Position numbers and translations under genes: made by a program
From: an uncultured delta proteobacterium
Lineage (GTDB): Bacteria; Desulfobacterota; Desulfovibrionia; Desulfovibrionales; Desulfovibrionaceae
DNA: 64,000 nucleotides
Assembly: GCA_903843965.1 (NCBI GenBank)
Contig: CAIMRY010000023.1
Span: 1 to 64,000 of the forward strand
Direction: 5' to 3'
In this document: in pieces, positions 48,877 through 60,570 of the stretch
Layout of the letters: every line of letters starts with the position of its first letter
How positions within the stretch are numbered: position 1 is the stretch's first letter
The notes under the pieces: model-generated
Database searches by the model: none
What the model saw: only the letters and a program-made list of their open reading frames with translations
Told to the model about the DNA's origin: nothing

Positions 48877-50628
48877 CTACTCCGCCGGCACGAGCTGGCG
48901 GCTCACCTGATTCGTGGCGGTGACCGTCGCGGCATCGCAGATCACATCGCAGAACATGCAGCAGTTGGACGGCACGCCCATGAGGTTCTCGCAGTGGAAG
49001 TTCGCCTTGTAGCTGGACCAGAGGAACTCCAGGCTGATGCTCCGCGCATCGGGCGAGATCCTGCCGGTCACCGGGTGCACCTGCCCCGGAATGGAGCAGC
49101 CGTGCTCCCCGTTGTACGCGCCGCCCTGCACCGAGCCCTGCAGGGCGCCGTTGTTCAGGGTGAGCGTGTAGGTGAGGTTGCCCGAGCCGATGGTCATCTT
49201 GTCGCCGTTCATGGCCACGGCATAGCTGCCGCCGGAGGCGTCGACCCAGCGGCCCTGCATGCCGCGTATCCGTTCCGCCTCCTCCTTGGCGATGTTGATC
49301 TCGAAGATCTTGTCCTGGGCCGCCTGGACCCTGGGGTCGCCGGGGGCGGCGGCCATGAACAGCCGGAGGTTCTGCGTGGCCTGCTCGAACTTGTTCTGCC
49401 CCGCCTGGAGGATGCCGAGGTTGTAGTAGCCCTCCAGCCACCAGGGGGCCAGGCGCAGGGCCTCGACGATCTCCCGCTCCACCAGGCCGATGTCCTGGCC
49501 CTTCTTGAGCAGGTAGGAGCTGCGCACGAGGTGCTCCCGCGCCTTCTCAGGGATGGCGGGCGCTTGAGGCAATCCTGCGGCATAGTTCACGATCTTTGTG
49601 CGGATGTTCTGCTCGGCCTCGCCGCCCAGGTCCTGGGCCTTCACCAGGGCGGAGGCGTACAGGGCGAGGGCCTTGGCGGACTGGCCCGCCTCGGCCAGGG
49701 AGTCGCCGGTGGCCAGCTCCTGCTCCAGCAGCTGCTGCAGCCGCTGTTCGATGAGCGCGGCGACGGCGGACTGGTTGGCCGCACTCTCGGGCGCGGCAGC
49801 GGCAGGCGCAGCGGCAGCCATGCGGGCCATGCGGGCCATGCGGCCCTGGTTGCCGACTGCGCCGCCGCCCGCCGCGCCGCCGCCGGAACGGGCCAGCATC
49901 AAGGAGGTGGCGTCATTCCTGTTCCGCAGCCCGAGATCAACGCCGCGCTCAATGAAGAAGCCCGCCAACGCGACGTTGGAGTTTCTGGCGGCGAGGTGCA
50001 GCCCGGACTCGCCGTTGGCGGTCCTCGCCAGCGGGTCGGCCCCCTGGTCGGCCAGCAGCCTGGCCGTGTCCACGTCGGCGGCCAGGAGCAGCGCGGTTTC
50101 GCCAGCCCTGTTGGCGGTCTTTGCGGAAGCCCCGCTTTTCAGCAACAACTCGACGAGCGCCCGGTTGCCCTTCCTGGCGCAGACCATGAGGGCGGTGTTG
50201 CCTGCGGCGTCAGTGCTGTCCAGCTTCGCGCCGGACTGGGCCAGCAGCCGCACCACGCCGTCGCGGCCATACATCGTGGCCAACATGAGCGGCGAAAGGC
50301 CTGTGCCCGTGGCCAGGTTGATGTCGGCCCTGCCCGCCAGGAGCTTTTTCACGATGTTTTCATGCCCGGCGCAGGCCGCAGCCTGCAGGGGGGTCAACAG
50401 GCTCTGGCCGGGGCAGCTGGCCTGGGCTTCCCTCACGGGGGCCGGGGTGTTCACGACCTGGGCATCGGAGGCCAGCAGGCTGTCCAGGGTGGCCGTGTCG
50501 CCCGTGAGCGCAGCCGTCGTCATCTGCTCCTGCGGCGTGGCGCAGGCGGCCAGAAGAAGCAGGAGGAGCAGGAGCATCAACATGCAGGCTTTCACGGCCA
50601 GCGAAGCAGCAACTGAGCACTTTCTCAT
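48877..50628 (-). CDS. Ankyrin-repeat lipoprotein with TPR-like region and C-terminal beta domain
   Basis: A 583-aa protein with a very hydrophobic signal peptide ending in lipobox LAAC (Cys29). Residues about 35-250 contain six to seven ankyrin repeats (TPLQAAACAGHENIVKKLLA, SPLMLATMYGRDGVVRLLAQ, NTALMVCARKGNRALVELLL). A Gly/Ala/Met linker follows, then a helical tetratrico-like region (about 285-440) and a C-terminal domain (about 445-583) beginning MQGRWVDASGGSYAV that looks like a small beta fold and has five cysteines near its end. AGGAG precedes ATG 50628. It is probably anchored in the outer or inner membrane facing the periplasm and acts as a protein-binding scaffold. It heads a two-gene operon. 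Confidence 0.85.
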   Translation of the reverse strand: MRKCSVAASLAVKACMLMLLLLLLLLAACATPQEQMTTAALTGDTATLDSLLASDAQVVNTPAPVREAQASCPGQSLLTPLQAAACAGHENIVKKLLAGRADINLATGTGLSPLMLATMYGRDGVVRLLAQSGAKLDSTDAAGNTALMVCARKGNRALVELLLKSGASAKTANRAGETALLLAADVDTARLLADQGADPLARTANGESGLHLAARNSNVALAGFFIERGVDLGLRNRNDATSLMLARSGGGAAGGGAVGNQGRMARMARMAAAAPAAAAPESAANQSAVAALIEQRLQQLLEQELATGDSLAEAGQSAKALALYASALVKAQDLGGEAEQNIRTKIVNYAAGLPQAPAIPEKAREHLVRSSYLLKKGQDIGLVEREIVEALRLAPWWLEGYYNLGILQAGQNKFEQATQNLRLFMAAAPGDPRVQAAQDKIFEINIAKEEAERIRGMQGRWVDASGGSYAVAMNGDKMTIGSGNLTYTLTLNNGALQGSVQGGAYNGEHGCSIPGQVHPVTGRISPDARSISLEFLWSSYKANFHCENLMGVPSNCCMFCDVICDAATVTATNQVSRQLVPAE

Positions 50629-52823: not shown

Positions 52824-55535
52824 ATGTTCGTTGTCTCATCGATTCCAAAGCGTTGCACTGTGGCCTGCGCTCTGGCCTGCCTGACGCTGTCCCTCTCCGG
52901 CTGCATCCTGGCCTACATCCCGCAGCCCCTGCCGATCTTCCCCTATGCCCCGGACGCCCAAGCCATTGCGGACCGCAAGGAACTCTCCGTGGTCGACCAG
53001 ACCCTGACGGCGGATTCCAACAGCACGGGCAGCACGGGCAGCACCCGCTCGGTGTTCATCGCCCTGCGCGGCGCCCGCGTTGTGGGCAAGGAGAAGAGGC
53101 TGGCCGAGCAGGACGTGCTCCGGGAGATGCCTGCGCCGGACTTCAAGCCCTCGATCATCAGCTACGTGCCGCCGCCCATGTTCCATACGCCCAAGGAAGG
53201 CGACCGCCACTATTTCAACTTCACCATCAGCAAGGACTTTGCCGAAGGCATCACCGCGTTCTTCGCCGGGGAGAGCGAGAAGTCCGTCGCGGCCTTCGAG
53301 CGCGTGCTGGCCGACCCGAAGGTCAAGAGCGCGGCGGGCTGGCAGGCCTCCATGCACCTGGTGTACCTGCACCTGATGATGGGCCGCCCGGACCTGGCCG
53401 AGACCGAGGTGCAGCGCACGGAGTTCTGGGAAAAGAAGATGACCGACGGCAACAACGTCTATTCCCGCGCCGTGCGCGCCGAGGTGCGGTACTGGGCCGG
53501 CGACTTCGAGGGGGCCATAGCCGACGCCAAGGACGTGCTGGCCTCCATCGGCGACTGGACCATCCCGACCATCTACCCCTCCCCCCCACGCGACCAGGTG
53601 GACGTGATCCGTTTCGGCACGGCCAAGGTCCGCGCCATGACGGTGCTCGGCATGCTGTACACGGCCAAGGGCATGTACAAGGAGGCCCTGCCCTGGCTGG
53701 AGCAGTCGGCCAAGGAGATGACCCACGTCGTGTTCCTGCACTGGGTGCCGCTCTACGCCCTGTACATCACGGCCAACAACTGGGAGGTGTTCTACGGCGA
53801 AGGCTGGAGCCTGACGAGCCTGGCCACCGCCCTGCTCGCCCAGGACCCGGACTCCAAGCGTGCGGCAACGATGTTCACCGATGCGCAGAAGTTCTTCGAC
53901 GCCATCGGCTACGTGGCGGGCAAGGTGCTCATCGAAAGCTTCAAGGCCCAGGTGCTGCTGGCCACCGGGCAGCACCAGCGGGCGGAGCAGCAGGCCGCCG
54001 TGGCCCTGGAGCACGCCCAGAAGAGCAGGCTGCTGGACTTCATCTGGCGGCTGGAGGCCGTGCGCGGCGAGGCCCTGCTCAAGCTGGACCGCTGGGACGA
54101 AGCCGAGCATTCGCTGCGCGCCGCCCAGACCGTGGTGGACCAGCTCTCCGGCACCATTGTCAGCGACATGGCCAAGGTCCGCTTTGGCGTGGGCAAGGAG
54201 ATCATCACCAGGAACCTGGTGCAGATCGACATCCGCAAGCGCGACTGGCCGACCCTGTTCCAGGACCTGGAGCGCGGCCGGGCCCGGGCCTTTGTCTCCA
54301 TGCTGGCCAACCGCACCGTGGGCGCGGGGGCCAACGTCGAGCAGACCGCGCGCATCCACGTGCTGGACAAGGAGATCCTCGTCGAGCGCCAGCGCAAGTA
54401 CGGGTTCATGCAGAACGGGACCATGGAGTCCGACCGGGAAGAGGACCTGCTGGCCCAGCGCCAAAAGCTGGTTGAGGAGCTGCACGCCACGAACCCGGAC
54501 CTGGCCGAGGCGTACGCCGTGTCCACCGTGGAACTGGCCAGGGTCCAGGCCTCGCTCGCCGCCGGGGACCTGATGGTCTACGCCCTGCCGGCCCAGAGGG
54601 AGGAGCCGCTGTCGCTCTTGCTGGTGACGGCTCGGGACGTGCAGCTGCGCATCCTGCCGGTGACGGGCCGCCAGTTCGGCCAGCACCTGAAGGACTTCGT
54701 GGCCACCCTGTGGACCGCGCAGCCCAAGAGCCAGTACGCGGCGCTGTCGCAGCTGCGCCAGGACCTGGCGCTGACCTCCTGGGGCAAGCCCGCCAATGTC
54801 CTGGTGGTGCCCAGCGGCGATCTGCACTTCGTGCCCTGGGGCGCGCTGGACGTGTCCTTCACCGTGGGCGTGCTGCCCACAGGCGGCTGGATCGTGCGCT
54901 CGCCGCACAGGTCCAAGGGCGCGGTGCAGGCCTGCATCGTGGGCGACCCGGAGTTCGGCGGCGTGCTGCCGCAACTGCCCGACGCGCGCGACGAGGCCGT
55001 TTCGCTGGCGAAGCTGTACGGCACATCGGCCATCATCGGGCCGGACGCCACAGAGACGGCCCTGCGCCAGCGGGTCGGGACCGGGGTCGACGTGCTGCAC
55101 CTGGCCACCCACGCCCTGTATGATCCGCTGTACCCCTTGCAGTCCTCGCTCATCTTGAGCGACGGCCAAAAGGCCGTGCCCCTGTCTGCGGAAAAGCTGT
55201 ACAAGAATCCGCTCTCGTCCCGGCTGGTGGTGCTTTCCGCCTGCGAGACGGGCATGGGCCAGGTCATCTCCGGCGACGACCTGCTGGGCCTGACGCGCAG
55301 CTTCTATCTCGGCGGCGCCAACGTCATCTTAAGCAGCCTGTGGCCGGTGAGCGACGAGGCCACGCGCATCTTCATGGAGCAGTTCCACAAGAGCGCCCGC
55401 AGCGGCGACTACGGCCTGGCCTGGCTGGCCGCGCGCGACGCGGTGCGTGCCAGGGGCGCAACCCCGGCGGAATACGGGGCCTTTGTTCTGGGCGGCATGC
55501 CCAGCGAACGGCAAACCCTCAGACCGGGCAGATGA
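52824..55535 (+). CDS. TPR-CHAT protease lipoprotein (first copy)
   Basis: A 903-aa protein with an N-terminal lipoprotein signal (lipobox LSGC, Cys27), TPR-like helical repeats over about 150-480 (GKVLIESFKAQVLLATGQHQ, RAEQQAAVALEHAQKSRLLD), a coiled region and a CHAT domain at about 590-895. CHAT is a caspase-related peptidase; the catalytic dyad is intact: His763 in LHLATHALYD and Cys807 in VVLSACETGMGQV. The signature segment GGANVILSSLWPVSDEAT follows. GGGAGGTG lies 4 nt before ATG 52824. Most described TPR-CHAT proteases are cytosolic defence or death effectors, whereas this one is predicted to be lipid-anchored outside the cytoplasm. It opens a plus-strand series with caspase, OmpA and second CHAT genes. 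Confidence 0.93.
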   Translation: MFVVSSIPKRCTVACALACLTLSLSGCILAYIPQPLPIFPYAPDAQAIADRKELSVVDQTLTADSNSTGSTGSTRSVFIALRGARVVGKEKRLAEQDVLREMPAPDFKPSIISYVPPPMFHTPKEGDRHYFNFTISKDFAEGITAFFAGESEKSVAAFERVLADPKVKSAAGWQASMHLVYLHLMMGRPDLAETEVQRTEFWEKKMTDGNNVYSRAVRAEVRYWAGDFEGAIADAKDVLASIGDWTIPTIYPSPPRDQVDVIRFGTAKVRAMTVLGMLYTAKGMYKEALPWLEQSAKEMTHVVFLHWVPLYALYITANNWEVFYGEGWSLTSLATALLAQDPDSKRAATMFTDAQKFFDAIGYVAGKVLIESFKAQVLLATGQHQRAEQQAAVALEHAQKSRLLDFIWRLEAVRGEALLKLDRWDEAEHSLRAAQTVVDQLSGTIVSDMAKVRFGVGKEIITRNLVQIDIRKRDWPTLFQDLERGRARAFVSMLANRTVGAGANVEQTARIHVLDKEILVERQRKYGFMQNGTMESDREEDLLAQRQKLVEELHATNPDLAEAYAVSTVELARVQASLAAGDLMVYALPAQREEPLSLLLVTARDVQLRILPVTGRQFGQHLKDFVATLWTAQPKSQYAALSQLRQDLALTSWGKPANVLVVPSGDLHFVPWGALDVSFTVGVLPTGGWIVRSPHRSKGAVQACIVGDPEFGGVLPQLPDARDEAVSLAKLYGTSAIIGPDATETALRQRVGTGVDVLHLATHALYDPLYPLQSSLILSDGQKAVPLSAEKLYKNPLSSRLVVLSACETGMGQVISGDDLLGLTRSFYLGGANVILSSLWPVSDEATRIFMEQFHKSARSGDYGLAWLAARDAVRARGATPAEYGAFVLGGMPSERQTLRPGR

Positions 55536-55669: not shown

Positions 55670-57073
55670 ATGCCACGGAAGTTGCTGCTCATACTGGCCT
55701 GTCTGCTTGTCTGCTTCTGTGTCCTGGCTGCCCGGCCCGCGCAGGCCGAACGCCGGTCCGCCCTTGTGATCGGCAACGGCGCGTACGCATCGGCGCCGCT
55801 GCGAAACCCGGTCAACGACGCCAGGGCCATGGCCGCAACGCTGCGGAGCCTGGGCTTCGAGGTCATCCACCTGGAAAACGCCAGTCAGGCCATGATGGAG
55901 GACGCCCTGAACGCCCTGGGCAGGCTGCTCGCCAAGGGCGGCGTGGGCCTGTTCTACTACGCCGGGCACGGGGTGCAGGCGCAGGGCCGCAACTACCTCA
56001 TCCCGGTGCAGGCCAGGCTTCTGAGCGAGAGCGACCTGCCCCAGCAGGCCGTGGACGCCTCCGCAGTGCTGGAGCGCATGGAGCAGGCCAACAACGACCT
56101 GAACATCATCATCCTGGACGCCTGCCGCAACAATCCCTTTGCCATGAAGCTGCGCTCCGGCAAGGGCGGGGCGGGCGGCCTGGCCGCCATGCAGGCCCCC
56201 AAGGGGTCGCTCATCGCCTTCGCCACCTCGCCGGGGTCCGTGGCCTCGGACGGGTCCGGAGAAAACGGCGTGTACACCAAGCACCTGCTCGAAAACCTGC
56301 GCACCCCGGGCCTGCAGGTGGAGCAGATGTTCAAGCTCGTCCGCAGCGGGGTCATTGCGGAGACGAACAGCCAGCAGCGGCCCTGGGAGACAACCTCAAT
56401 CCAGGGCGATTTCGTCTTTGCCGATGCCGGGGGAGCCGCCCCGGTCGCCGAGGAGCCGCACGCCGCAGCAGCACCGGCAACGACGCCTGCGACAACATCG
56501 GCGGCGACGCCCGCGCCTGCCGACGTTGCGGCGCAGCCGACGCCGAAGTCGCGCTCCAACCCCATCCAGGTGGAGTTCGCCATGTTCCGGGAAAACGGCA
56601 AGAAGCCGCCCACGCCCGTCAGCACAGGAGGCAGCATGCGCTCCGGCGACGCGTACTTCTTCCACGTCAGGCCCAGCCAGGACTGCTTTCTGTACCTGTT
56701 CCAGGTGGACGCCACGGGCAAGGCCTTTCGCCTGTTCCCCAACGACGCGTACCATACCCAGGCCAACCCGGTGCTGGGCAAGGCGAACCTGACCCTGCCC
56801 AACCAGACCGAGGTGTTCTACCTGGACCAGACCGTGGGCAAGGAGGAGTTCTATTTTCTCGCCTCCGAGGAGCCGGTTGCGCAGTTGGAGAACCTCGACG
56901 CCAGCACCGTGGACGGCATCATGCGCTCCGGGATGACCCTGCGCGGCCCGGCGGGCGTCAAGGCCGCCATGGGCGCCGTCGCGGCCAGCGGCGCCGGGGA
57001 GCAGGCCCTGAAGGTGCAGGAATTCTCGTTTGTGAACAGCTTCGTGCACGCCATCGCCATCAAGCACAAGTAG
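55670..57073 (+). CDS. Exported caspase-domain protein with DUF4384-like C-terminal domain
   Basis: A 467-aa exported caspase homologue. The start at ATG 55670 has AGGAGG 6 nt upstream. Signal peptide residues 1-26 (cleavage after AQA). The caspase p20 fold spans about 27-250 with RRSALVIGNGAYASAPLRNP at its start, catalytic His100 in YYAGHG and Cys152 in ILDACRNNPF. An Ala/Thr/Pro linker (about 260-300) leads to a C-terminal domain (about 305-420) with GDAYFFHVRPSQDCFLYLFQ and FRLFPNDAYH, as in DUF4384, a frequent partner of bacterial caspases. Near the end lies the motif TLRGPAGVK, repeated in the OmpA gene downstream. Stop-to-start distance to that gene is 12 nt. Confidence 0.93.
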   Translation: MPRKLLLILACLLVCFCVLAARPAQAERRSALVIGNGAYASAPLRNPVNDARAMAATLRSLGFEVIHLENASQAMMEDALNALGRLLAKGGVGLFYYAGHGVQAQGRNYLIPVQARLLSESDLPQQAVDASAVLERMEQANNDLNIIILDACRNNPFAMKLRSGKGGAGGLAAMQAPKGSLIAFATSPGSVASDGSGENGVYTKHLLENLRTPGLQVEQMFKLVRSGVIAETNSQQRPWETTSIQGDFVFADAGGAAPVAEEPHAAAAPATTPATTSAATPAPADVAAQPTPKSRSNPIQVEFAMFRENGKKPPTPVSTGGSMRSGDAYFFHVRPSQDCFLYLFQVDATGKAFRLFPNDAYHTQANPVLGKANLTLPNQTEVFYLDQTVGKEEFYFLASEEPVAQLENLDASTVDGIMRSGMTLRGPAGVKAAMGAVAASGAGEQALKVQEFSFVNSFVHAIAIKHK

Positions 57074-57085
57074 CAGGAGAGGAAC

Positions 57086-57766
57086 ATGCTGCACGCGACG
57101 AGATACCGCACGCTTTGCCTGGCCTGCGCGCCCTGCTTGCTGGCCGGGGTGCTGGCCGGGCTGCTGGCCGGGCTGCTGTGCACGGCTCTGGCCCTGGCCC
57201 AGGGCACAGCGGCGGGCCAAAGGGAGCACCAAAGGACGGACCAGGGGGCGAATCGGGAGGCGGGCCAGATGGTGCCCAAGGACGAGTTCATCCGCCAGTT
57301 GGGAGGCCAGGAGCCCACCGCGCCGCCTTCAGGATCGCGCACAATGCGGCTGCGCGGCCCGGCCGGGGTCAAGACCGTCGACGGACAGCCCGGCCAGCCC
57401 GAGCAGGCGCCCAGACCCAAGGAAGTCGCCATCCTGATCCACTTCCGCTACGGCTCCACCGAGCTGGCGGACGAGTTCTCGCGCAGCCAGCTGCGCGAGG
57501 CGGGCCAGGCCTTCTCGTCCCCGGAGCTCTTCGGGCTGGCGTTTGAGATCGGCGGGCACACCGACTCCCAGGGCTCGGAGGCGTACAACCTGGAGCTCTC
57601 GCGGCGGCGGGCCCAGGCCGTGAAGGACGCCCTGTGCCGGGGCTACAAGGTTGACTGCGGCGCGCTGGAGGTCAAGGGCTACGGCAAGTCCGAGCCCGTG
57701 GCCGGGAACGACGACGAGGCGGGCCGCAGCCAGAACCGCCGGGTGGTGTTCAAGAGGCTGCGCTAA
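57086..57766 (+). CDS. OmpA-domain peptidoglycan-binding protein
   Basis: A 226-aa exported protein. Signal peptide about 1-38 (long hydrophobic core, ALA-QG). A Gln/Arg/Gly-rich linker carries RLRGPAGVK (about 90-98), matching the motif in the caspase C-terminus. The OmpA/MotB domain covers about 110-226: VAILIHFRYGSTEL, GHTDSQGSEAYNLELSRRRA and the conserved GRSQNRRVVF end, with the Asp and Arg residues that hold diaminopimelate in peptidoglycan. There is no beta-barrel or lipobox, so it is probably soluble periplasmic and cell-wall bound. It lies 12 nt after the caspase gene and could tether or localise the caspase. Confidence 0.92.
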   Translation: MLHATRYRTLCLACAPCLLAGVLAGLLAGLLCTALALAQGTAAGQREHQRTDQGANREAGQMVPKDEFIRQLGGQEPTAPPSGSRTMRLRGPAGVKTVDGQPGQPEQAPRPKEVAILIHFRYGSTELADEFSRSQLREAGQAFSSPELFGLAFEIGGHTDSQGSEAYNLELSRRRAQAVKDALCRGYKVDCGALEVKGYGKSEPVAGNDDEAGRSQNRRVVFKRLR

Positions 57767-57871: not shown

Positions 57872-60157
57872 ATGAGAAGGGCTCTGTTGCGGTTTGCTCT
57901 CATTGTTCTGACGCTTCTGAACAGCGCCTGCGCCGCAGGCATCTACCACGCCATCGCCCCCGAGGGCGACGAGAACAACCTCAAGGCCCGCTACGAGGAG
58001 AACATCGCCCTGTTCGAGCCCCGCTTCGAGCAGAATGCGCTGAACAACACCCAGCTCATGTACCTCTGCGAGGCCTATTCCAAGACCAAGCGGTTCAACA
58101 AGCTCACGGCCTGCCTGGACAGGATGGTCGACCGCTACAACCAGGGCGAAACCAAATACTTCAATTTCGATCTGTACGAGCTGGTGGTCATCGGCCGGAC
58201 CAAGGCCAAGATCGACCTGGGCGACTATGCCGGGGCCGCAGCCTACAGCCAGGCCTATCTGGACCGGAAGAAGGAGGACATCGCCCGCTACTCGCTGGTG
58301 CAGCTGCTGGCCTTCAACGGCCTGGCCAAGGCCCTGTCCGGCGACGCGGCCGGTGCGCTGTCTGTGGTGGCGCAGCTGGAGGCCATCTATCTCGGCTATC
58401 CGTTCAGCATGATGCAGCAGGACCGCGACGAGGGCGAGGCCAGGATCTACATGGCGCTTCAGGACTATCCGAAGGCCTACGAGGTCATGCAGCGCGAGAG
58501 CGGATTCTCGTTGTTCGCCGTGGCTGTAGCCGAGACGGCCTTCGGCAGCTCCGGCTGGTTTGTGTTCCGCGAGCTGCCGAACAAGTTCATGCGGGCGCGG
58601 GCCGCCTACCTGTCCGGGCGCAAGGAAGAGGCCAGGAAGGGCTACGACGAGCTGCTGGCCAATGAGCGGACCAGGGCCAACGGCGAGATTCTGTGGCAGC
58701 TTTTGTACGACCGGGCCCGCATGGCCGAGGATGAGGGCAAGGGCGACGTGGCCCTGCGCTTCTACCTGCAAAGCATCGAGGTGGTGGAGCAGCAGCGCAG
58801 GTCCATCTCGTCCGACGCCTCCAAGATCGGCTTTGTGGGCGACAAGCAGGCCCTGTACGAGAGCGTGGTGGACCTGCTGGTGCGCCAGGGGCGGACGGCC
58901 CAGGCCTTCGAGTACGTGGAGCGGGCCAAGTCCCGCGCCCTGGTGGACCTTTTGGCCGAGCGCCAGGACTTCGTGCCCGGGGCCCAGGCCAACGCGGCCG
59001 CGACCCTCAAGCAGCTGGCCAGCCTGGAGCAGCGCTATCAGGTCCTGACCCCCGGCCTTGAGGAGCACGCCAGGCTGCGCAGCGCCATGAGCGCCCTGGA
59101 GGGCAACCTCCGGCAGCAGACCCCGGAGCTGGCCTCCCTGGTCACGGTCGAGTCCACGGCCGCCGCCGAGATCCAGGCCCGGCTCGCCCCGGACGAGACC
59201 CTGCTCGAATACTACGGCCTGGGCGACGAGCTGTACGCCTTCACCGCCACCCGCGAGTCCATCACCGCGCAAAAGCTCGACGGCAAGGGCATGGAGGCCG
59301 ATGTGCGCGCCCTGCGCGAGGCCATGCGCAACGTGGGCTCCGACGCCTGGAGGCCTGTCTCGCGCAGGCTCTACGGGCGGCTTTTGGCCCCGGTGGAGGC
59401 CGCCCTGGCCAAGCCCCGGCTGATCATCGTCAGCCACGGCGCGCTGCACTACCTCCCCTGGTCCGCCCTGTTCGACGGCCAGCGGTTCCTGGTGGACCGG
59501 GTGACCCTGCAGCAGCTGCCCTCGGCCAGCGTCATGCAGTTCCTGGCGGCCCGCAAGCCCTCCACCCTGCGCGACATGCTGCTTTTGGGCAACCCGGACC
59601 TGGGCGACACGGCCATGGACCTGCCCGGGGCCGAGGCCGAGGTGCGCGCCATCAAGACCCTGTGGCCCAACTCGACCCTGCTCCTGCGCAAGGCCGCCAC
59701 CAGGGACGCCCTGAGCAAGGCCGGGCAGCTGTTCAGGATCATCCACGTGGCGGCCCACGGCGAGTTCGTCACCGACCAGCCGCTCAACTCGCGCCTGCTG
59801 CTCTCGCCCACGGGCGCGGACAACGGCCAGCTCACCGCCGGGGACCTGTACGGCATGCGGTTCAGCGCCGACCTGGTGACGCTCTCGGCCTGCGAGACGG
59901 GCATGGGCAAGGTGCTTTCCGGCGACGACGTGGTGGGCCTGACGCGCGGGTTCCTGTACGCCGGGGCCAACTCCATCGTGGCCAGCCTGTGGCCGGTGTC
60001 GGATGACGAAACCAAGTTCCTGATGGCCAGCTTCTACAAGAACCTGAAGGTGCTGCCCAAGGCCCAGGCCCTGCGCCAGGCCCAGCTGGACACGAAGAAG
60101 AGGTACCCGCACCCGTTCTACTGGTCGGCCTTCCAGCTCACGGGCATGGGCAGGTGA
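57872..60157 (+). CDS. TPR-CHAT protease, exported (second copy)
   Basis: A 761-aa paralogue of the CHAT protein at 52824. The start at ATG 57872 is set by GGAGG 6 nt upstream; an earlier in-frame ATG at 57812 has none. The signal sequence MRRALLRFALIVLTLLNSAC could be a lipoprotein signal with Cys20, although Asn at -3 is unusual. Helical TPR-like repeats fill about 40-400 (GRTAQAFEYVERAKSRALVD leads into the CHAT linker). The CHAT domain (about 440-755) has the dyad His629 in IIHVAAHGEF and Cys674 in LVTLSACETGMGK, and SIVASLWPVSDDET. Compared with copy one the N-terminal half is only loosely similar, suggesting different substrates or triggers. Confidence 0.93.
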   Translation: MRRALLRFALIVLTLLNSACAAGIYHAIAPEGDENNLKARYEENIALFEPRFEQNALNNTQLMYLCEAYSKTKRFNKLTACLDRMVDRYNQGETKYFNFDLYELVVIGRTKAKIDLGDYAGAAAYSQAYLDRKKEDIARYSLVQLLAFNGLAKALSGDAAGALSVVAQLEAIYLGYPFSMMQQDRDEGEARIYMALQDYPKAYEVMQRESGFSLFAVAVAETAFGSSGWFVFRELPNKFMRARAAYLSGRKEEARKGYDELLANERTRANGEILWQLLYDRARMAEDEGKGDVALRFYLQSIEVVEQQRRSISSDASKIGFVGDKQALYESVVDLLVRQGRTAQAFEYVERAKSRALVDLLAERQDFVPGAQANAAATLKQLASLEQRYQVLTPGLEEHARLRSAMSALEGNLRQQTPELASLVTVESTAAAEIQARLAPDETLLEYYGLGDELYAFTATRESITAQKLDGKGMEADVRALREAMRNVGSDAWRPVSRRLYGRLLAPVEAALAKPRLIIVSHGALHYLPWSALFDGQRFLVDRVTLQQLPSASVMQFLAARKPSTLRDMLLLGNPDLGDTAMDLPGAEAEVRAIKTLWPNSTLLLRKAATRDALSKAGQLFRIIHVAAHGEFVTDQPLNSRLLLSPTGADNGQLTAGDLYGMRFSADLVTLSACETGMGKVLSGDDVVGLTRGFLYAGANSIVASLWPVSDDETKFLMASFYKNLKVLPKAQALRQAQLDTKKRYPHPFYWSAFQLTGMGR

Positions 60158-60309: not shown

Positions 60310-60570
60310 ATGAAAAAATCCATCATCGCCATGTCCATGGTCCTCGCATTCGCCGGCGTTTCCTTCGCCGCCCCCGGCAAGATGGACGAAGTAGCTCCCG
60401 GCGAAGGAAACGAAGCCACCGCGCAAATCAAGAAGGCCCCCGGCAAGGAGAACCCCAGCAAGATGGACAAAGTAGCTCCCGGCGAAGGAAACGAAGCGTT
60501 AATCAAGCAGGCCCCCGGCAAGAAGGCCCCCTTCAAGGGTGCCCCCGGAACCGTGAAGAAGGCCGAGTAA
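60310..60570 (+). CDS. Small secreted protein with a duplicated PGEGNEA repeat
   Basis: An 86-aa exported protein. Signal peptide residues 1-20 (cleavage after SFA), AAGGAG before ATG 60310. The mature 66 residues contain two near-identical units, KMDEVAPGEGNEA and KMDKVAPGEGNEA, followed by basic KKAPGK-type segments, so it alternates acidic and basic patches and is probably unfolded. The duplication is also clear at DNA level (about 60381-60417 and 60462-60501). It has its own promoter signals. It lies 152 nt behind the second CHAT protease gene and is a conceivable substrate or peptide signal, but nothing in the sequence proves a link. Confidence 0.85.
   Translation: MKKSIIAMSMVLAFAGVSFAAPGKMDEVAPGEGNEATAQIKKAPGKENPSKMDKVAPGEGNEALIKQAPGKKAPFKGAPGTVKKAE

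Follow-up and report, generated by a model that had tools for sequence, protein, structure and literature searches.

In the YfiBNR system of Pseudomonas aeruginosa, as set out in the excerpt of PMC4655355 used here, the helix-bearing N-terminal linker of YfiB rearranges and the periplasmic protein YfiR is sequestered at the cell envelope. The motifs known as bacterial amyloid signalling sequences (BASS), which link Bell and NLR proteins, are short and similar in the products of adjacent genes (PMC9815663, excerpt), and DUF4384 is named among the accessory domains of cyanobacterial orthocaspases (PMC8283722, excerpt). In this study I describe a short element, LRGPAGVK, in a stretch of 64,000 nucleotides (the window; positions 1 to 64,000 of contig CAIMRY010000023.1, assembly GCA_903843965.1) from an uncultured delta proteobacterium of the Desulfovibrionaceae, phylum Desulfobacterota. 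The element is found in the C-terminal tail of a caspase homologue (Peptidase_C14, in short C14) that carries a DUF4384 domain, and again in the linker of the small OmpA-family protein encoded next to it. The motif is genuine, and both partners conserve it. Probably it represents the local version of a wider element that tends to match between a DUF4384/caspase protein and a peptidoglycan anchor.

The OmpA-family protein of the window resembles YfiB in being small and in carrying its OmpA domain at the C-terminus, and the OmpA protein of a relative (genome G161; in what follows G marks genomes, C contigs and L loci) aligns to the NCBIfam model of YfiB with its linker included (residues 39-192 of its given stretch against model positions 10-156). 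In contrast to YfiB, both proteins score below the 128-bit cut-off of that model (NF053585; 75.7 bits for the window protein and 93.2 bits for that of G161), no clear lipobox was seen by eye in the window protein, and its partner is a DUF4384/caspase protein instead of YfiR. Because the score lies below the cut-off and the partner differs, the window protein would at most work like YfiB, and I know of no YfiB linker that copies a segment of a partner. As in the BASS systems, a short similar motif is present in the products of adjacent genes, but here the partners are a C14-DUF4384 and an OmpA protein, both probably exported, and the motif is internal and shorter. The C-terminal part of the caspase belongs to the DUF4384 family (PF14326, 49.7 bits versus a Pfam gathering cut-off of 27), although the Pfam match stops before the element. 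Among the papers listed in a literature search, none dealt with a DUF4384-OmpA motif or link, or with a link between caspase, OmpA and CHAT proteins, and in those parts of the DUF4384 literature that were available the tail element is described nowhere.

The original prediction had pointed to LRGPAGVK in both proteins, encoded by nearly identical DNA and located outside the known folds, and all of this holds: the copies occupy residues 424-431 of 467 in the caspase and 89-96 of 226 in the OmpA protein, the sequence CTGCGCGGCCCGGC begins at 56939 and at 57350 and has no other exact match in the window, and the Pfam match to DUF4384 stops at residue 402, while that to OmpA begins at residue 120. 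It had also stated that the caspase ends with TLRGPAGVK, which is wrong, as 36 further residues follow the motif. Eight residues is the longest peptide common to the two proteins, whereas the longest in 1000 shuffles was 3 to 6 residues in 999 cases and 7 in one. At the DNA level the likeness is limited to the motif: the 60 nucleotides on either side match at 16 and 18 of 60 positions, and identical residues within the eight-residue core use the same codon about equally often within a genome (21/29) and between the two proteins of different genomes (57/87). The repeat is not a homogenised DNA repeat. Near matches to the 14-mer are common, as the DNA is GC-rich (20 in the window with up to 2 mismatches, 7.3 expected). 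RGP[AG]GV and one more codon, written as a degenerate DNA pattern, occurs 59 times in 15 genomes of the genus, which is rarer than its reversed control (97), and therefore the motif DNA as such is not special. Among 30 of these loci that were checked, four fall in gene pairs with known genes (G003 twice, G009 and the window); at the other 26 another frame has a higher GC content at third codon positions, so that the motif is probably non-coding there. Two matches in the window's own genome (C23:98830 and C43:119950) lie outside the 30 loci.

Full pairs of a caspase-DUF4384 gene and an OmpA gene were found four times in 59 genomes, the window's own genome (G000) included: in the window, on contig C26 of the same genome, in G009:C25 and in G003:C18. 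The caspase copy reads LRGPAGVK followed by AA in all four pairs, and the OmpA copy reads LRGPAGVK twice, RRGPAGVR once and LRGPGGVK once. The motif is thus kept in both partners of these orthologous or paralogous pairs with small changes in the OmpA protein, and the loss from one partner that would have pointed to chance or local recombination was not encountered. As a side observation, 12 places in G000 match the caspase protein, and each of four further genomes of the genus has 10 to 13 such places, which makes for an unusually rich set of homologues.

Beyond the genus, an element with other letters recurs at the same two places. A strict pattern, [TSVMQC]R[GSA][IVLFM]x[IVLFM], is present in 50 of 130 DUF4384 tails from the genomes searched for caspases, where shuffles lead one to expect about 1.4%; the count is likewise 50 when all 188 DUF4384 frames are considered. 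With the Arg as the fixed point of the alignment, the tails give the consensus D-[IL]-G-x-[RK]-T-R-G-[IV]-K-[IV], located 24 to 64 residues, mainly about 30, from the C-terminus. At the key position of 206 tails Arg occurs 51 times (4.5 expected) and Lys once (4.3 expected), and in 65 OmpA linkers Arg occurs 12 times (2.1 expected), Ala 9 (3.6), Leu 6 (2.0) and Met 4 (0.9). Relatives of the OmpA protein have SFRGIRI, TRGIKI, TRGFVI, TRGLAGV and similar peptides at the same place of the linker, behind a helix-like segment (PKDEFIRQL in the window); R90 of the window protein, and L72 within the helix-like segment, are invariant in the 15 sequences selected for OmpA alignment A1, and a structural model of the fused protein L136 has a helix at the corresponding place. 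A looser pattern, which admits LRGPAGV, is found in 21 of 50 OmpA linkers near a DUF4384 gene (3.9 expected), although two of these matches (QRAMTLL, in L270 and L274) look like chance, in 3 of 8 linkers near a caspase only (0.45 expected) and in 12 of 135 elsewhere (5.5 expected). Six of those 12 (L006, L007, L036, L093, L332 and L335) come from genomes with a DUF4384 gene farther off or on another contig, and L004 comes from G005, where no DUF4384 match reached 1e-6. Met takes the place of Arg in G468, G1024, G351 and G538. DUF4384 and OmpA are fused in one protein in G468, G1024, G1063 and G458 and in L129, L136 and L171, which links the two domains.

Some individual loci deserve separate mention. 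The fusions in L129 (5347-6342), L136 (5398-6354) and L171 (5368-6372), two of them from Myxococcota and L171 from Deltaproteobacteria, have a helix and TRS or TRA between the two domains. The G468 cluster (L441, 4649-11049) has three DUF4384 proteins, one of them fused to OmpA, with TMG in two tails and in the linker. On a Bradyrhizobium plasmid (L207, 3067-5489) the OmpA linker contains LTRSLSV and KTRSLSS, and the divergent caspase adjoining the OmpA gene has TTRSV just after DACRDNPF. The OmpA protein of G505 (L492, 4899-5768) has KLRGLAGMKK before its OmpA domain, near to LRGPAGVK, and the adjacent DUF4384 tail lacks it. No relative was found in the viral contigs searched, PADLOC returned weak general matches only, and a broader scan of contigs yielded mostly unrelated OmpA proteins, which were used as controls.

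Within a pair, the copies tend to match. Linker and tail read TRGLAGVAADA and TRGVKGVVEDA in G161, TRGFVISGA and TRGFVVESA in G224 (where the genes are divergent), TRGFVVTKE and TRGFVVIQA in G231 (with about 4.5 kb between the reading frames), TRGIKIGSSK and VRGIKVGSKT in G218, and TRGIKIESK and VRGIKIAAP in G034. The forms with Met read TMGVRVRTE and TMGVKGTRE in the fused protein of G468 (where KTMG is also present in a second DUF4384 protein), KTMGIEDYTV and NLMGIEDYTV in G351, and LMGFKNETA and TMGFAQYSV in G538. G009 holds two classes, the linked GPAGVK pair and an unlinked pair of LSRGIKIS (DUF4384) and SFRGIRIN (OmpA). When linkers and tails were re-paired at random and scored by their best ungapped match without chosen registers (20,000 permutations throughout; 39 of 47 pairs, after 8 loci that were near-duplicates by genus or sequence had been dropped by judgement), 10 permutations reached the observed mean, or 26 when the permutation was kept within two groups. 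For the 18 pairs of the window's phylum the number was 5 (2 in a rerun). A profile-registered test, limited to 8 genomes with one pair each and both elements above threshold, gave 31. Among 13 pairs whose registers were set by hand, linker and tail share the Arg/Met state in 13/13 (p 0.004) and the residue at +2 in 10/13 (p 6e-5); leaving out the window and G224 these become 11/11 and 8/11. This set did not include G1024 (close to G468), unlinked pairs of the genus, G202, G929, G390, G505 and the second pairs of G1063, and as registration by hand favours similar pairs, I consider the re-pairing tests safer. The likeness measured in the hand-registered pairs lies C-terminal to the Arg. Among stretches fetched late, G538 and G1024 matched, and G390, G505 and G1063:C78 did not.

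Several observations speak against a pair-specific recognition of the two copies. The re-pairing result for the phylum weakens to 54 of 20,000 permutations without the window and to 636 without the window and G351, and a second sample from the Pseudomonadota (the class of G543 and the phylum of G547) shows no pair signal in 21 pairs (10,667 of 20,000). The strict element is present in only 7 of the 65 tails of that sample, none of which has an OmpA gene in the stretch fetched. OmpA linkers near its other DUF4384 genes often keep TRG, TRA or TRS all the same, so that the OmpA element does not depend on a matching tail for its persistence. Most element-bearing tails of one fetched set also have no OmpA gene in their stretch. 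Two of the 8 genomes in the profile-registered test, G522 and G1063, have dissimilar copies, and the window's own pair falls below the threshold of that test. Matches are poor or absent in G227, G202, G929, G338, G1092, G390, G505 and G522, and the copies differ in G1063 and G458. All pair tests ignore phylogeny, and the 39 pairs include several from one genome. Finally, the tails of the window type (LRGPAGVK, 4/4) do not fit the strict pattern; I assign them to the wider element, as a probable local form, because of their place and their behaviour in pairs.

As the proteins that host the two copies are unrelated, common descent of the pair alone is insufficient to account for the likeness, which points to something that reads both. 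The original prediction had offered a cleavage site, a docking peptide or a relic of rearrangement, and of these docking agrees best with the data. The reading that I favour, with a probability of roughly 0.4, is that the OmpA copy imitates the DUF4384 tail, and that one reader would bind both and tie the exported caspase to the peptidoglycan in the manner of YfiB. On this view, a single envelope system would use a short recognition peptide in two proteins: in the caspase protein it lies between the DUF4384 core and the final stretch, and in the neighbouring protein it is part of the linker that joins the signal peptide to the OmpA domain. Either copy would fit one and the same binding site, which might be a groove of the DUF4384 domain. 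The OmpA protein would fasten the probably exported caspase to the peptidoglycan and push the caspase tail aside, and this binding might switch the caspase. The model of L136, built from ten sequences (mean pLDDT, the predicted local distance difference test, of 80), shows the DUF4384 strands, a helix, the last strand and then a helix at 192-200, followed by RTRAIR with a pLDDT under 50 and by the OmpA domain. An exposed, flexible element is therefore probable, and this would suit docking as well as cleavage. The window's DUF4384 with its tail, modelled from one sequence, reached a pLDDT of only 38.5, which does not help the favoured reading. Among the 50 matches listed in a fold search, the L136 model retrieved OmpA-type domains almost throughout, YfiB-YfiR complexes included, and none that convincingly covers DUF4384. 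A broader version of the favoured reading, which I regard as rather doubtful, would be a recognition code of the envelope, in which OmpA anchors copy the tail of their cognate caspase/DUF4384 protein and the copies coevolve in each lineage, so that an anchor holds, or is cut by, its own partner only.

The main rival, somewhat unlikely in my view, is that the element is a cleavage site. The caspase or the TPR-CHAT proteins would cut after its Arg, both in the OmpA linker, which would free something from the wall, and in the DUF4384 tail, which would hit the caspase or a sibling, with one protease reading both. An Arg followed by a small residue, beside a C14 caspase, does resemble the substrate sites of orthocaspases, and the tails are specific for Arg over Lys and continue with Gly, Ser or Ala. 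For a wild-type orthocaspase, docking and simulation are reported to point to Arg at P1 (PMC8283722, excerpt). Of 20 genomes that were searched for C14 on account of their OmpA proteins or pairs, 18 gave a match, in many cases within the same protein or locus, and 41 of 72 DUF4384 genomes with a C14 match have the tail element versus 6 of 26 without, a comparison that is confounded by lineage; G468, with its TMG motifs, is a genome without a detected C14 match. The probable exposure of the element in the L136 model would be in line with cutting as well. Docking is nevertheless preferred, because the conserved and matched residues lie after the Arg, whereas caspase-like proteases read mainly the residues N-terminal to the cut, because those 6 of 26 genomes keep the tail element although no C14 match was detected, and because in G351, whose caspase has the His and Cys motifs, Met replaces Arg in the tail of that caspase as well as in the OmpA partner. 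The absence of caspases is less firm than these numbers suggest, as my own caspase profile finds caspase-like frames that the C14 search had missed in two of the 26 genomes (G274 and G1092), which lessens the case for docking; at the loci of the six genomes that keep the element, the same profile found no caspase-like frame. Binding as a pseudo-substrate would look identical to a cleavage site.

Other explanations fare less well. Both copies could bind the same third protein instead of DUF4384, for instance a TPR-CHAT lipoprotein, which would account for OmpA linkers that carry the element where the DUF4384 tail lacks it, and CHAT relatives are present in a number of these loci; but the orthologues of the window's two CHAT proteins are both present in L032 (the G009 locus), L033 has that of TPR-CHAT protein 2 alone and L031 has neither (its CHAT protein is 24-26% identical), and I consider this quite unlikely. 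It is more unlikely still that like binds like, with the copies stacking as matching strands in the manner of the amyloid signalling motifs of adjacent genes. Motif repetition in adjacent genes is how bacterial amyloid motifs were revealed (PMC9815663, excerpt), and similar peptides with alternating hydrophobic residues in otherwise unrelated adjacent proteins would agree with this, but the element is internal, only about 8-10 residues long and located in probably exported proteins, it is often present in one partner only, and a Pfam scan of five window proteins found no NLR domain. It is extremely unlikely that the repeat arose by chance or was left behind by gene conversion or a local duplication, even though GC-rich DNA supplies near matches. 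Chance as the origin is rejected on the grounds of the shuffles and the conservation in orthologues, and the relic of gene rearrangement that the original prediction had also considered is disfavoured by the unrelated flanks, by codons that are not homogenised, by the recurrence of the element with other letters in other genera, and by class-matched copies in the divergent genes of G224 and at a distance of about 4.5-6 kb in G231. A likeness of the motif to the caspase's own loop after DACRNNPF (LRSGKGG) was considered and dropped, as judged by eye among 107 caspase-like frames, in which the loop of the DACRxNPF type often has [FLY]RS whatever the motif class.

The features of the locus are collected in Table 1. 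The caspase has the AGHG and DACR motifs that correspond to the His and Cys motifs of C14. By eye, signal peptides are present at the start of both TPR-CHAT proteins, the caspase and the OmpA protein, so that the caspase, the OmpA protein and TPR-CHAT protein 2 are probably exported, and together with the lipobox of TPR-CHAT protein 1 this suggests that the four-gene cluster probably works in the cell envelope. The orthologues of TPR-CHAT protein 2 in L032 and L033 adjoin the caspase/OmpA pair.

Table 1. Coordinates of the four-gene cluster, the shared element and associated features in the window.
Feature	Position	Strand	Remarks
TPR-CHAT protein 1	52824..55535	+	PF12770, E 3e-39; likely lipoprotein, LSGC by eye; cluster member
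Possible weaker third copy, LRGARVVGK, near the N-terminus of TPR-CHAT protein 1	53064..53090	+	
Caspase (Peptidase_C14) with C-terminal DUF4384, 467 aa	55670..57073	+	PF00656, E 3.1e-39; PF14326, E 3.8e-13
DUF4384 domain, Pfam extent	56639..56875	+	PF14326 match
Shared element, copy 1, LRGPAGVK in DUF4384 tail	56939..56962	+	Caspase residues 424-431
Final caspase stretch, QEFSFVNSFVHAIAIKHK	57017..57070	+	Perhaps the last DUF4384 strand, judging from strand 173-183 in the model of L136
Small OmpA-family protein, 226 aa	57086..57766	+	PF00691, E 2.4e-17, residues 120-218
Helix-like segment PKDEFIRQL, N-terminal of the OmpA element	57275..57301	+	Relatives have a similar segment
Shared element, copy 2, LRGPAGVK in linker N-terminal of the OmpA domain	57350..57373	+	OmpA residues 89-96
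OmpA peptidoglycan-binding domain	57443..57739	+	PF00691, residues 120-218
TPR-CHAT protein 2	57872..60157	+	PF12770, E 1.1e-70; cluster member

Near the N-terminus of TPR-CHAT protein 1, STRSVFIALRGARVVGKEK resembles the shared element, and the G009 orthologue (L032), the one orthologue compared here, reads SRSVFIAMRGTRVVGKES (MRGTRVVGK); this may be a third copy of the element. Elsewhere in the window, a small exported-looking protein at 60310-60570 is built of repeats such as APGK and VAPGEGNEA, and on the minus strand at 48877-50628 an ankyrin-repeat protein starts with a lipobox-like LAAC, a further sign of an envelope-facing neighbourhood.

The function and the substrates of bacterial caspase homologues are largely open, and it is unusual to see an apparently exported caspase in the company of a peptidoglycan anchor and two proteins with CHAT domains. 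With docking by imitation as the best, though tentative, explanation and cleavage as its main rival, the matched peptide names a concrete contact, with its residues, its partner and natural swap classes (TRG, TMG and GPAGVK). It also marks a conserved element in the DUF4384 tail, beyond the Pfam match, in a domain of unknown function. The matched tags suggest that one partner may read both copies, which would connect bacterial caspases to the cell envelope in a testable way.

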